The notes under the pieces: generated by a model
Told to the model about the DNA's origin: nothing
The model's database searches: none
What the model saw: the letters and a program-made list of their open reading frames with translations, nothing else
DNA from: Hymenobacter perfusus
GTDB lineage: Bacteria > Bacteroidota > Bacteroidia > Cytophagales > Hymenobacteraceae
DNA length: 64,000 bases
Direction of reading: 5' to 3'
Assembly: GCF_003944765.1 (NCBI RefSeq)
Contig: NZ_RWIU01000011.1
Location: forward strand, 1-64,000
Translations under genes and position numbers: made by a program
Shown here: in pieces, positions 37,323 to 41,735 of the stretch
Layout of the letters: the number at the start of each line of letters is the position of its first letter
Position numbering within the stretch: the first letter of the stretch is position 1

Positions 37323-38432
37323 ATGTCGACCTTGAATCAAGCGGTACCCGCCGCGCCGGCTCCGGCCGCGCTGGCGGAAAAGAAACTCTCCGGTCTGGAC
37401 CGCGGCCTTACGCTGTGGATATTCCTGGCCATGGCGCTGGGCGTGGGCCTGGGCTACTTCGTGCCGGGCATCAACGGGGCCATCAACTATTTCTCGGTAG
37501 GCACGGTGAACGTGCCGCTGGCCATTGGCCTGATTCTGATGATGTACCCGCCGCTGGCCAAGGTGAAGTACGAGCAGCTGCCGACGGTGTTTAAAAACAC
37601 GCGCATCATCGGGCTGTCCTTGTTTCTGAACTGGATACTTGGCCCGCTGCTCATGTTCTTCCTGGCCATCTGGCTGCTGCCCGACAAGCCCGAGTACATG
37701 ATGGGCCTGATTTTGATTGGCATTGCCCGCTGCATTGCCATGGTGCTGGTGTGGAACGACCTGGCCGACGGCTCGCGCGAATACGCGGCCGGGCTGGTGG
37801 CGCTTAATTCCATCTTCCAGGTGCTGTTTTACTCGGTGCTGGCTTGGCTGTTTATCACGGTGCTACCGCCGTACTTCGGGCTGAAAGGGTACGCCGTGAA
37901 CATCGGCATCTGGGACATTGCGCAGAGTGTGCTCGTGTACCTGGGCATTCCGTTTGCGGCCGGTTTTCTGTCGCGCACTATGCTGCGCCGGCTGAAGGGC
38001 AATGAGTGGTATGAGAAGGTCTTCATTCCGGCCATCAGCCCCATTACCCTGGTGGCGTTGCTGCTCACCATCGTCGTCATGTTCAGCCTCAAGGGCGAAA
38101 CCATCGTGCAAGTGCCGCTGGACGTACTGCGCATTGCCCTTCCGCTGGCCCTGTACTTCGGCATCATGTTCGTGCTCAGCTTCGCCGCCGGCAAGTACCT
38201 GGGGGCAGATTACGCGGAGAATGCGAGCATTGCCTTCACGGCCACGGGCAACAACTTCGAGTTGGCCATTGCGGTGGCCATCGGGGTATTCGGGCTCAAC
38301 TCGGGGCAAGCGTTTGCGGGCGTGATTGGGCCGCTGATTGAGGTGCCGGCGCTGATTGCGCTGGTCAACTTGGCCTTCTGGTTCCGGCGCCGCTGGTACA
38401 GCGGCACCACAAACGCCCTGGCTGCCAAATAA
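37323..38432 (+). CDS. ACR3 family arsenite efflux transporter
   Basis: A 369-aa ten-helix membrane protein of the ACR3/BART group. The signature [18 protein letters not shown] in TM4 holds the Cys needed for As(III) translocation; [19 protein letters not shown] in TM9 carries the second conserved element. A short Ala/Pro-rich cytosolic leader precedes TM1. It exports As(III) by proton antiport. Last gene of the ars operon, 12 bp after the acetyltransferase gene. Confidence 0.95.
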
Positions 38433-39631: not shown

Positions 39632-40261
39632 TTAACGGGTAGCGGAAGGGTTCAGCACCGAATAGCCGGTGCCGTTGATGGCGGCCTCTACCTGGGCCAC
39701 GGGCGTGACGGCGGCATTGAAGCGGACCTGAGCCGTGCCCTGTTCGTAGGAGACCTGCACGCGCTGCACGCCCGGCAGCTGCTGCACGTCGTGCTCCACG
39801 TGACGGGCGCAGGCCTCGCAGGTCATGCCGCTAATGCGGTAGGAACTGGTTTGTAGCACCGGGGCGGCGCTGGTAGCCACCCCTGGCTTGGGAACTGCTG
39901 TCGGGTAGAATTGCGCCCCGTAGTAGGGAAAGGCCAGCAGCAGCGCGGCCAGCACGGTGACCGTGCCCAGAAAGCCCCGCGACTGCATCAGCGAGGGCTT
40001 GGCCGGCACGGGGCAGCCGCAGTCATCGGCTGCCGTTGGCGCGGGTCGCAGTTGCTGGTACCAGGCGAAGCCCAGGACGCCCACGGTCAGGGCTACCAGA
40101 TAGGGACGCAAGGGTTCCAACCAGGCGAAGGTGGAGGCAACGCCGCCCAGCCCCCCGACAATGGCCAGCAGGGGGGTAATGCAGCACAGTGAAGCGGCCA
40201 GCGCAGCCAGCAGGCCCGTACCGGCCAGAGACTTGGTGGGTGTGGAAGCAGGTTGGTTCAT
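39632..40261 (-). CDS. merTP: Fused mercuric ion transporter MerTP
   Basis: A 209-aa fusion. The first 120 residues are MerT-like: a Cys pair in LAASLCCITPLLA within TM1, then WYQQLRP and two more helices. After a linker, residues about 140-209 form a MerP/HMA domain with GMTCEACARHVEHDVQ. The fusion is the usual Bacteroidota form and takes Hg(II) from periplasm to cytosol. It overlaps the regulator gene by four bases (ATGA). No mercuric reductase gene (merA) lies in this window, which is unusual for an importer. Confidence 0.9.
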   Translation of the reverse strand: MNQPASTPTKSLAGTGLLAALAASLCCITPLLAIVGGLGGVASTFAWLEPLRPYLVALTVGVLGFAWYQQLRPAPTAADDCGCPVPAKPSLMQSRGFLGTVTVLAALLLAFPYYGAQFYPTAVPKPGVATSAAPVLQTSSYRISGMTCEACARHVEHDVQQLPGVQRVQVSYEQGTAQVRFNAAVTPVAQVEAAINGTGYSVLNPSATR

Positions 40262-40629
40262 ACGGCAGCAGGCGTGAGGGAGGTGGAAACGGACCCCAGC
40301 AACGGCTCTATCACGGGGCGCAGGGCGGGAGTCAGGGTGTAAAACACGGTCTGGCCCACTTTGCGCGCCTGCACCACGCCGCCGTCCTTGAGCTTGCGCA
40401 GGTGCTGCGAGATGGCCGACACGTTCATCTGCAGCACATCGGCTAGGTCACACACGCACAGCTGCTGCTGGTCGAGCAGCAGATACAGCATTTTCAGGCG
40501 CACGTCGTTGCCGGCCAGGGCCAGTACCGCCGCCACGGCTTCGAGGCCCGGCGCAGCCGCGGCCAGGCGCTGCTTGCTGTGTTCAATGTGCGCAGCGTCG
40601 GCAAAGACGCGAATACAGGAGGTGGCCAT
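40258..40629 (-). CDS. ArsR/SmtB metal-responsive repressor of the mer operon
   Basis: A 123-aa ArsR-family regulator. The metal motif LCVCDLA is in the classic alpha-3 position, followed by the DNA-reading helix NVSAISQHLRKLKDGGVV and a winged hairpin VGQTVFYTL. A third Cys is near the N-terminus (ATSCIR). It is the first gene of the operon and is translationally coupled to merTP. In Bacteroidota an ArsR-type protein often replaces MerR in this role. It most likely binds the 14-bp dyad at 40656-40687. Confidence 0.88.
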   Translation of the reverse strand: MATSCIRVFADAAHIEHSKQRLAAAAPGLEAVAAVLALAGNDVRLKMLYLLLDQQQLCVCDLADVLQMNVSAISQHLRKLKDGGVVQARKVGQTVFYTLTPALRPVIEPLLGSVSTSLTPAAV

Positions 40630-40643
40630 ACTACTCGTTTTCG

Positions 40644-40687
40644 TAAAAGTACTGTTTTCTTATTTAAGCAAACGCTTAAATAAGAAA
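40644..40687 (-). promoter_or_regulatory. Promoter and operator of the mer operon
   Basis: On the minus strand a TTTG (40669-40672) lies 17 bases before TACTTTTA (40644-40651), a near match to TAnnTTTG. A perfect dyad with 14-base arms (TTTCTTATTTAAGC) and a 4-base centre at 40656-40687 covers the -33 box. It should be the repressor operator. Confidence 0.72.
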
Positions 40688-40692
40688 CGAGA

Positions 40693-40722
40693 AAAAAGAG
40701 CAGGCCCTCGCCTGCTCTTTTT
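40693..40722. terminator. Intrinsic terminator after the 22-aa Cys peptide gene
   Basis: Perfect arms AAAAAGAGCAGG and CCTGCTCTTTTT flank the loop CCCTCG. It lies 20 bp beyond the stop of the small gene and insulates the mer operon promoter. Confidence 0.9.
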
Positions 40723-40741
40723 CTGTGGCACTTCGGCTAGC

Positions 40742-40810
40742 TTAGCAGCAGCCCGAAGTATTGCCGCCGCAGCAGGTGCCGTCGCAGCAATCGGTGGGTT
40801 CGTGGTTCAT
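40742..40810 (-). CDS. 22-residue peptide with three Cys-Cys pairs
   Basis: A very short gene: the peptide begins MNHEPTDCCDGTCC, continues with GGNTSG and ends in a third CC. Three vicinal Cys pairs in 22 residues strongly suggest binding of As(III), Hg(II) or similar soft metal. Support for it being real: a promoter-like motif shared with sigZ lies 51 bp upstream, and a strong terminator lies 20 bp downstream. No named family is known to me. It could be a regulatory peptide, a metallothionein-like scavenger, or a leader. Confidence 0.55.
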   Translation of the reverse strand: MNHEPTDCCDGTCCGGNTSGCC

Positions 40811-40860
40811 GGCGAACGAGGGGATGAAGTGAGGTAAGCCGCACCACCTTGGTACACTTG

Positions 40861-40888
40861 ATAGACGACGGCACTGAAAAAAGACGCA
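40861..40888 (-). promoter_or_regulatory. Putative SigZ-type promoter of the 22-aa gene
   Basis: On the minus strand TGCGTC and CGTCTAT are separated by exactly 15 bases, with T runs after the first box and CGT before the second. The same arrangement occurs before sigZ (41490-41517). The motif starts right after the sigZ stop codon. CGTC in the -10 box is common for ECF sigma factors. Confidence 0.6.
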
Positions 40889-40889
40889 G

Positions 40890-41471
40890 CTAAGAGGCAC
40901 AGCTTCTGGCTGCCGTGCAGCCGCACTGGTGGCGCGGCTGCGCTTCCAGTGCGGCTGCACGGCAGCCATCGACTTTCATCCGGCAGCAGGCCGTGAACAG
41001 CTGGTGCAGCTGCTGCTTGGCCCGCTGCACCCGCGACTTGGCCCCAGAATAGGAGATGCCTAACTCGGCTGCGTAGTCCTTCTGCGACAGCGCCCCAAGC
41101 TCAGTGCGTAGTAAAGCCTCCCGCGACGCGGCGGGCAGCTGGTCGACAAACGGCGTGATGCAGGGCGCAAAACCCGGGTTCAGCTCAGTGGGGTCGGCTA
41201 CGTCGGGAATATCCCCCTCCAGCTCAACCAGGCCCCGCTGGGCTTTCTGGTAGTCCAGAATGCGGTTGCGGGTAATCTGGTATACCCAGCTGGTGAGCTT
41301 GTCGGCGTAGGTGAGCGTAGGTAGCTTGAGATGAATCTTGACAAAGACGTCCTGCAGCAGGTCCTGGGCCGCGTCGGGGTCCGTAACGCGGCGCCGGATA
41401 AAAGCCAGCAGCTCGCGGTGGAAGTCGGCCCAGATGGTTTCGGTGGTGGCGGCGGCGGGGTTCATGGACAT
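40890..41471 (-). CDS. sigZ: ECF-like RNA polymerase sigma factor SigZ
   Basis: A 193-aa sigma-70 family protein. Region 2 is IWADFHRELLAFIRRRVTDPDAAQDLLQDVFVKIHL with WVYQITRNRILDY; region 4 is ALSQKDYAAELGISYSGAKSRVQRAKQQL. The tail has seven Cys, with ACCRMKVDGC right after region 4 as usual for SigZ, then an unusual CGC...SC end. Those last residues are coded by a perfect 23-bp inverted repeat. SigZ genes are often near metal or thiol genes in Bacteroidota. The Cys tail may sense metal or redox state (inference). Candidate autoregulated promoter at 41490-41517. Confidence 0.88.
   Translation of the reverse strand: MSMNPAAATTETIWADFHRELLAFIRRRVTDPDAAQDLLQDVFVKIHLKLPTLTYADKLTSWVYQITRNRILDYQKAQRGLVELEGDIPDVADPTELNPGFAPCITPFVDQLPAASREALLRTELGALSQKDYAAELGISYSGAKSRVQRAKQQLHQLFTACCRMKVDGCRAAALEAQPRHQCGCTAARSCAS
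40907..40968. repeat. Perfect 23-bp inverted repeat inside the 3' end of sigZ
   Basis: Two GC-rich 23-base arms (first arm starting TGGCTGCCGTGCAGC) pair without mismatch over a 16-base loop. In RNA this is a very stable hairpin inside the last codons of sigZ. No T tract follows at once. Confidence 0.9.
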
Positions 41472-41489
41472 GGCAGTGGTTCTCTCCCA

Positions 41490-41517
41490 ATAGACGACGC
41501 AACACCAAAAAGACGCA
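41490..41517 (-). promoter_or_regulatory. Putative autoregulated SigZ promoter
   Basis: TGCGTC, 15 bases, CGTCTAT on the minus strand, with TTTTT and CGT flanks, the same as the element at 40861-40888. The second box ends 18 bases before the sigZ ATG, a fitting place for a -10 box. Confidence 0.6.
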
Positions 41518-41537: not shown

Positions 41538-41735
41538 CTAATTCGGGATGTCCTGCTGTAGCCACGGGCGACGTGTGCCACAGGCGGTGCATTCCATCAA
41601 GAGCTCGGTAGCATGCGCGTACCGCTCCAGCACCTCCACGTGGGCGTGCAGCGTTTCCTGCCGGCACGTGGCACAGGCCAGCAACTCGGTAGCTTCGAGC
41701 TGCTCCTGCAAAAACAGTAGCTCATCATCCCTCAT
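41538..41735 (-). CDS. Small zinc-ribbon-like protein
   Basis: A 65-aa protein starting MRDDELLFLQEQLEATELL. Two CxxC pairs (ACATCRQ and ECTACGTRR) are 28 residues apart with a helical spacer, as in small treble-clef or zinc-ribbon proteins. No family recognised. It lies 66 bp before sigZ on the same strand and may belong with it. A longer in-frame reading to 41831 has no good support. Confidence 0.5.
   Translation of the reverse strand: MRDDELLFLQEQLEATELLACATCRQETLHAHVEVLERYAHATELLMECTACGTRRPWLQQDIPN

Follow-up and report, generated by a model that had tools for sequence, protein, structure and literature searches.

A SigZ-like sigma factor gene and an adjacent cysteine-rich mini-gene share a putative promoter element in Hymenobacter perfusus

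Introduction

What does a sigma factor control when the same two-box element stands before its own gene and again directly behind it, ahead of a reading frame of only 22 codons? The question is posed by a 64,000-nucleotide stretch of Hymenobacter perfusus (contig NZ_RWIU01000011.1, positions 1 to 64,000; this whole stretch is the window, and coordinates without a locus label refer to it), in which a sigZ-like gene for an extracytoplasmic function (ECF) sigma factor is followed by a gene for a tiny cysteine-rich protein, here called the mini-gene. A preliminary description of this DNA proposed a small self-contained SigZ regulon with a metal-binding peptide as its output. The comparisons reported here lead us to think, with a probability of about 0.7, that sigZ and the mini-gene form a two-gene, self-contained module for metal(loid) stress. 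As judged from sequence comparison, the paired architecture is real, beyond chance and conserved. A compact metal- or arsenic-defence module is probable because the sigma gene and the mini-gene share a start signal and because the pair recurs in distantly related bacteria.

Results

The putative SigZ promoter before sigZ (41490..41517, minus strand) combines TGCGTCTTTTT at about -35 with CGTCTAT at about -10, separated by N10; the element reads TGCGTCTTTTTGGTGTTGCGTCGTCTAT (41517-41490), and 18 nt separate it from the ATG. A second putative SigZ promoter, TGCGTCTTTTTTCAGTGCCGTCGTCTAT (40861..40888, minus strand, read from 40888 to 40861), lies 1 base past the sigZ stop and 50 nt before the mini-gene. 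We found that both elements carry TTTTT after the first box and CGT before the second, and that TGCGTC-N15-CGTCTAT has exactly two matches in the 64-kb window and none in 100 dinucleotide shuffles, which bears out the earlier observation of a motif repeated with the same flanks and identical spacing before sigZ and directly after it. A scan of the whole genome (5,111,572 bases), which the preliminary description had proposed, returned only these two sites with a pattern one base shorter, and none with the reversed pattern. A third genomic site, obtained with a T tract added and up to 3 mismatches, was rejected as chance (1 extra site vs 6 reversed-pattern matches).

The mini-gene itself (40742..40810, minus strand; 22 codons, MNHEPTDCCDGTCCGGNTSGCC) encodes a 22-amino-acid peptide whose six cysteines form three CC pairs and are clustered as in metallothioneins. 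Directly after it stands an intrinsic terminator (40692..40723, minus strand) with a 14-pair stem and a T tract, so that gene, CC pairs and terminator are as first described; the hairpin persists with altered sequence on plasmid NZ_CP110138.1. The sigma gene (40890..41471, minus strand) encodes 193 amino acids with sigma70 regions 2 and 4_2 and a cysteine-rich C-terminal tail. PF04542 and PF08281 both score above cut-off, with no other Pfam domain, which is the architecture of ECF (group 4) factors.

The element follows SigZ in other genomes by two measures. First, in a genome scan not chosen by SigZ, TGCGTCYTTTTN{9,12}CGTCT was run across 395 Bacteroidota genomes (loci and genomes are labeled with L and G numbers, respectively). 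A genome was taken as SigZ-bearing if it had a match to the SigZ model of at least 115 bits, a limit chosen on seeing the scores, with up to 8 candidates scored per genome; 48 of the 395 genomes qualified, and G203 (112.6 bits) was not counted, its protein grouping with a control ECF factor in the tree. With a spacer of 15 or 16 nt there were 17 sites in 14 genomes, and SigZ was present in 13 of these 14 compared to 35 of the 381 others (Fisher P = 3.3e-12). Spacers of 14 or 17 nt yielded 4 sites in 4 genomes and were set aside after seeing the data; SigZ was present in none of those 4 genomes and in 1 of the 13 genomes with the reversed pattern. Since 15 of the 17 sites with a 15/16-nt spacer lie within 5 kb of a sigZ gene, the SigZ regulon appears local; co-occurrence and local placement together support the proposal of a small self-contained regulon. 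The two sites away from sigZ, in G131 (no SigZ at the limit) and G326 (whose sigZ is on a different contig), were dismissed as chance.

Second, we searched sigZ loci directly, allowing one mismatch and requiring a T-rich stretch, under rules set after seeing the data. Hits across 81 SigZ loci numbered 28 for a spacer of 15 nt and 48 for one of 16 nt; each of the eleven other lengths between 10 and 22 gave 0 to 4. The motif, whose absence from other sigZ loci the preliminary description had named as grounds for giving up the idea, was present in a cleaned set at 55 of 80 SigZ loci (1 at spacers 13/14 and 5 at 17/18), compared to 0 of 31 loci of other ECF factors, and related loci have elements similar to those of the window upstream of sigZ or its operon. 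Allowing at most one mismatch, we also found the motif at SigZ loci in Chloroflexota, Acidobacteriota, Lentisphaerota, Calditrichota and Bacillota (L040-L048).

The sets behind the locus counts (spacer, mini-gene, ars-gene and cleaned motif) differ slightly. None of these counts includes L044 (no suitable open reading frame, ORF), L049 (contig end) or L178 (which shares a contig with L033). The spacer and mini-gene counts include L171 and L127 (on one contig with L042); the other two counts omit both and cover 80 loci each, with the window stretch in the ars-gene list instead of L113. L050, in which sigZ is apparently frameshifted, is in the mini-gene, ars-gene, ORF-recurrence and cleaned motif counts and omitted from the spacer count. 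Controls were 34 loci of other ECF factors, of which 31 had a recognized sigma ORF (used for spacer, mini-gene, cysteine and cleaned motif counts); all 34 served for ars genes and 8 were placed in the tree, which leaves out L050, L127, L168, L169 and L178.

Some SigZ clades have motif variants of their own: for example, the second box reads CGACTAC in L128-L132, L135 and L160, and L158, L162, L166 and L167 combine TGTATC with GGTCT or AGTCT. Co-occurrence, fixed spacing and clade-specific variants support the view that SigZ itself would recognize the motif. We noted separately that the rows sharing CGACTAC (L128-L132, L135, L160) are ArsI/CadI-linked SigZ rows, as though promoter and sigma had changed together.

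The mini-gene also has counterparts beside other sigZ genes. Searching for ORFs of 18-90 amino acids with at least 5 cysteines and at least 18% cysteine, within 700 bp of sigZ or behind the motif at the locus, we found cysteine-rich mini-ORFs (19-65 amino acids, with cysteines in CxC/CC clusters) at 31 of 82 SigZ loci, compared to 0 of 31 controls. Of these mini-ORFs, 21 lie behind the motif at the set stringency and others behind a variant. The phylum-survey loci alone (L123-L171) gave 18 of 49, and the control loci contained three such ORFs in 257 kb, none beside a sigma gene. The mini-gene lies either 3' of sigZ (15 loci, the class of the window) or 5' of it (16 loci). The 3' layout coincides with one SigZ clade (15 of 15 rows, support 94/96; 1 change, 0 of 500 shuffles), to which the window protein belongs and which SigZ rows such as L118 join at 85/89; conservation of the peptide next to sigZ, which the preliminary description had proposed looking for, is thus seen as cysteine-rich counterparts at every locus of its clade. 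The 5' layout is represented by 14 rows in the tree and needs 2 changes; its sigma proteins outscore other ECF factors with the SigZ model.

The nearest relatives found of the window SigZ are in Hymenobacter telluris (95% identity) and on a plasmid typed as mobilizable in Hymenobacter sp. YIM 151858-1 (L066; 69.8%). The mini-gene of this plasmid, whose product differs in two residues, is found 1.6 kb away from sigZ at about 8.1 kb, where the incomplete gene table has no feature. An FRG-domain gene (L066, 6678-8024) lies between the two. We found no Pfam or NCBIfam family match for the 22-amino-acid ORF, and none of ten mini-peptides scored above cut-off against Pfam-A, with a single weak match (E = 0.2) to a eukaryotic metallothionein. 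We infer from the cysteine pattern that the peptide binds metal.

We considered that the mini-protein might act directly on the cysteine tail of SigZ, as a feedback inhibitor or metal donor rather than as a bulk sink. The pairing throughout the clade (15 of 15) would suit such a partner, as would the lack of any other recurring one, since no other ORF family of at least 80 amino acids is shared by more than 3 of the 15 loci in either layout, and the sets of 3 that do recur are fixed trios, for the most part close relatives. However, peptide length, cysteine number and sequence vary widely in the clade (19-65 amino acids, 6-19 cysteines), which suits a bulk chelator better, and in other SigZ clades the motif stands before genes for enzymes or permeases instead. 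We therefore regard a direct partner as unlikely, although it is the best of the alternatives to a sink.

Terminator-like hairpins bear on a second alternative, in which the cysteine-rich ORF is a leader peptide and ribosome stalling at its cysteine codons, through shortage of Cys-tRNA or loss of cysteine under metal stress, controls read-through into the next gene. Such a hairpin lies behind the mini-gene at 11 of the 14 loci counted for the 3' layout (0.6 expected) and at 9 of the 15 for the 5' layout (0.7 expected), as counted by ad hoc terminator rules against 20 mononucleotide shuffles per sequence, with L033 and L169 left out. The 5' layout, with the mini-gene before sigZ and such a hairpin behind it at those 9 loci, is that of an attenuator. 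Because the hairpin stands between the mini-gene and sigZ, it suggests that sigZ is fed by read-through there, and an attenuator role in this layout is possible. The two genes are separated by a hairpin of this kind at L140, L144, L147, L158, L162 and L166. In the class of the window, in contrast, the gene lies 3' of sigZ and has a promoter element of its own and, at the 11 of 14 loci, a terminator, and on these grounds we rejected a leader peptide for that class; moreover, the next annotated gene on plasmid L066 is convergent, leaving nothing to lead. Leader peptides have a run of codons near the leader's end, whereas here cysteines occur as CxC/CC/CxxC along the whole peptide, with spacing conserved within families. 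Taken over both layouts, a leader peptide is slightly less probable than a direct partner of SigZ.

Since the link between motif and SigZ is one of sequence association alone, the element could instead be the binding site of another regulator, a repressor or activator that also controls sigZ. This we consider improbable. The two boxes at a fixed spacing of 15-16 nt, with CGTCTA as the second, resemble the -35/-10 pair of ECF factors; the motif tracks SigZ (13 of 14 genomes), while no other ORF family of the size given above is shared by more than 3 of 15 loci in either layout; and the motif variants follow SigZ clades.

The evidence for translation of the mini-gene is conservation of its codons, for the most part among relatives. 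Five peptide families could be aligned; in these, 51 of 53 cysteine columns never vary (TGC and TGT are both in use in 29) compared to 46 of 104 other columns, dN (nonsynonymous divergence) is 0.04-0.30, and dS (synonymous divergence) is at least 0.5 or saturated in every pair except that of the window and H. telluris, whose mini-genes differ by one nonsynonymous base. Translation is thereby indicated. We rejected a chance reading frame in the 3' region as very improbable: the ORF is very short, has no family match or annotated feature on the plasmid and uses TGC for every cysteine in all three relatives, but 10 base changes between the window and plasmid L066 alter only 2 residues, and cysteine-rich ORFs, rare elsewhere, occupy the corresponding place across the clade.

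We examined the cysteines of SigZ. The tail (40893..40988, minus strand; C162, C163, C170, C183, C185 and C191) is the proposed metal sensor and has 6 cysteines among the last 32 residues, as in the cysteine-rich C-terminal domain of CorE-like factors (former ECF44). In 78 aligned SigZ rows, C162 is conserved in 72, C163 in 71, C185 in 69 and C183 in 53. The last 45 residues contain a median of 4 cysteines in SigZ rows, compared to 0 in 31 control ECF factors (two or more in 2 of them). At the places of the SigZ tail cysteines, the controls show no conserved cysteine; their one common cysteine column is residue 71 (15 of 31). A linker cysteine, Cys104 (codon 41160..41162, minus strand; APC-ITPF), is present in 48 of the 78 rows and in every displayed member of the window's clade (window, L033-L039). 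By analogy with CorE and CorE2, the tail is probably a metal sensor.

What SigZ would control in other clades also points to metals. Among the representatives scanned, the motif precedes ArsM at L040 (NF008823, 327 bits, cut-off 263), ArsI/CadI at L131 and L137 (NF041414, 128 and 145 bits, cut-off 116), ArsP_1-type permeases at L045 and L047 (PF03773) and a MATE exporter at L126. At single loci it precedes a PhzF-family isomerase, a PatB-type C-S lyase, a PAP2-type protein and an esterase-like protein, and three motif-following proteins matched no family under the limits applied. On a Priestia megaterium plasmid (L118, 2918-3997), a motif copy upstream of sigZ, one mismatch from the relaxed consensus, faces a divergent aldo/keto reductase gene, which is a candidate SigZ target in Bacillota.

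An ars-type gene was found at 36 of 80 SigZ loci and at 0 of 34 controls, with a query set picked in part from genes already seen at SigZ loci. For the 5' layout, 14 of 16 loci had none of the ars-type genes searched for. Likewise, 12 of 15 loci of the window's class had none of the ars/mer genes searched for nearby, other-metal genes not having been searched for; therefore arsenic or mercury as the inducer is not general, and the inducer may differ between clades. The earlier suggestion of arsenic or mercury fits the ars/mer island in the window and fails to extend to most of its class, and a role of the peptide in mercury or arsenic resistance only was rejected on the same count. Because mini-protein loci mostly lack ars-type genes, the peptide appears to stand alone as output.

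Several observations weigh against the module as we read it, among them the partly preselected ars queries and the 12 of 15 loci just described. Over all spacers, the genome scan gave 21 sites in 18 genomes compared to 13 for the reversed pattern, and its signal thus depends on the 15/16 spacing. No motif was found at the set stringency in 25 of 80 SigZ loci, some of which have variants, and related loci are counted as separate rows throughout. Both NCBIfam families that match the window protein best are SigZ models, as the preliminary assignment would have it, but both matches are below the curated cut-offs (NF007215, 165 bits for a cut-off of 212; TIGR02959, 154.1 for 168.65), so that the protein is best called 'SigZ-like'. 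Deep branches of the SigZ tree are poorly resolved: the deepest has support of 45/87, one control groups with L171, which was later dropped, and 11 of 14 rows of the 5' layout stand beside 7 of 8 controls at this weak branch, which makes their SigZ membership less sure. In the window's own peptide family of 3 sequences, all 6 cysteine codons are TGC with none mixed, and own-family evidence for translation is limited to the 10 base changes and 2 residue changes between window and plasmid. The linker cysteine has no match in 30 of 78 rows, and a structure model of SigZ built from 16 sequences (predicted template modeling score 0.39) is unreliable in the linker and the tail, the latter with a predicted local distance difference test score under 50; these are the parts that would have to form a joint metal site of C104, C162, C163 and C185. 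Finally, the window copy of SigZ, in which the conserved YGNI tail is replaced by CRAAA, may sense differently or be impaired.

This replacement lies in an inverted repeat (29 nt, 93%) within the 3' end of the gene (40907..40968). Comparison with H. telluris showed that one arm is an in-frame (+3 nt) reverse-complement copy of the other, the signature of a quasi-palindrome template switch.

The surroundings of the pair form a metal-resistance island with genes for a GNAT protein (nearest to the ArsN1 models, whose cut-offs it does not reach), ACR3, a DUF5990 protein, a GDCCVxC protein, MerTP and an ArsR regulator. The neighbors are an ArsR/SmtB-family regulator (40258..40629, minus strand; NF033788, 77 bits, cut-off 55), for which membership in the SigZ regulon is not implied, a MerTP fusion mercuric transporter (39632..40261, minus strand; NF033556, 243 bits, cut-off 180) and an ACR3 arsenite efflux transporter (37323..38432, plus strand; TIGR00832, 444 bits, cut-off 282.8). 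A 14-nt perfect palindrome before arsR (40656..40687), between the module and the next operon, is perhaps an ArsR operator. A large ORF near the island presumably encodes a conjugation coupling protein. On the sigZ strand, a 65-amino-acid ORF (41538-41735), whose two CxxC pairs look zinc-ribbon-like by eye, stops 20 nt ahead of the sigZ promoter element; we rejected it as an anti-sigma candidate, as it has no Pfam or NCBIfam match and, among the loci compared, occurs besides the window only in H. telluris.

A distant SigZ-like ECF factor (29.9% identity) is encoded in an ars cluster on a Klebsiella plasmid (L206, NZ_CP129768.1, 2243-3948), between arsH and an arsD-family gene, with a weak motif variant (two differences) between the sigma gene and the arsD-like gene. 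Plasmid records matching P0001 are from Klebsiella in 1049 of 1421 cases.

Discussion

In the module that we propose, SigZ is an ECF sigma factor with no conserved anti-sigma candidate next to it. Its cysteines, in the linker (C104) and the tail (C162-C163, C183/C185), are the probable binding site of a thiophilic ion (arsenite, Hg(II), Cd(II) or similar) that would switch the sigma factor on, by analogy with CorE and CorE2. SigZ-RNA polymerase would then recognize TGCGTCYTTTT-N10/11-CGTCTA before sigZ, giving positive feedback, and the same element before the adjacent mini-gene, whose SigZ-driven expression is predicted from co-occurrence, fixed spacing and clade variants. From its own promoter element to its own terminator, the mini-gene would make the 22-residue peptide with three CC pairs, probably a metallothionein-like sink that buffers the inducing ion and thereby turns SigZ off again. 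In other SigZ clades, the element would serve arsenic or cadmium detoxification genes instead (ArsI/CadI, ArsM, ArsP-like permease).

The closest parallels are CorE and CorE2 of Myxococcus xanthus (ECF44, now within ECF238), in which the cysteine-rich tail sets the metal response, CorE responding to the redox state of copper and CorE2 to Cd and Zn (PMC8999054, PMC3107203). ECF238 is 'also called SigZ' (PMC9239204), and as of 2021 CorE and CorE2 were its only experimentally studied members (PMC8103513). Like them, the window SigZ has a cysteine-rich C-terminal tail in place of an anti-sigma factor. Unlike CorE, it lacks the linker CXC and has the single Cys104; the CXC is missing from about 85% of ECF238 factors (PMC8999054). 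CorE activates genes for a multicopper oxidase and a copper ATPase (PMC10141476), and its -35 was sought as AAC (PMC3107203), whereas the putative promoter here is TGCGTCYTTTT-N10/11-CGTCTA and the output a peptide.

SigZ of the Bacillus subtilis type (TIGR02959 / NF007215) is the best family match over regions 2-4, with the window protein below both cut-offs. We know of no established regulon for B. subtilis SigZ. In the excerpts of two papers, sigZ is mentioned in a reference only (PMC2700814) and appears in reporter data on efp mutants (PMC13055313). Bacterial metallothioneins (SmtA/BmtA, MymT, PmtA) are small and cysteine-rich, as are the mini-proteins; these differ in their length of 19-65 residues (22 in the window), in their pairing with a sigma factor and in that none of ten scored above Pfam cut-off. 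Anabaena NmtA is under an ArsR/SmtB-type repressor (PMC8790569). The ArsI/CadI, ArsM and ArsP-like genes follow the motif in other SigZ clades, but they encode enzymes or permeases, compared to a mini-protein in the window's class.

For a metal-type ECF factor with a cysteine tail, we found neither this promoter code nor this kind of output described. The preliminary description knew of no SigZ target of this sort, and likewise none is described in the titles and opening lines of abstracts of the matches listed. A promoter predicted for ECF238 may already have been published in the ECF re-classification of Casas-Pastor et al.

More broadly, we lean toward the view, held with less confidence than that of the module in the window, that SigZ/ECF238-like sigma factors are cross-phylum, one-protein sensors of thiophilic metal(loid)s with the shared promoter code TGCGTCYTTTT-N10/11-CGTCTA, and that many in Bacteroidota would control largely unrecognized metallothionein-like mini-proteins of 19-65 residues, each with a dedicated sigma factor, as minimal two-gene modules of sensor and sink that also occur on a mobilizable plasmid. 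A poorly understood sigma family would thereby gain a promoter sequence, a likely class of signal and direct targets. A class of very small cysteine-rich proteins that gene tables can miss would come to light, here both within a resistance island for arsenic and mercury and on a related plasmid, together with a compact, apparently self-contained switch for metal-responsive expression.

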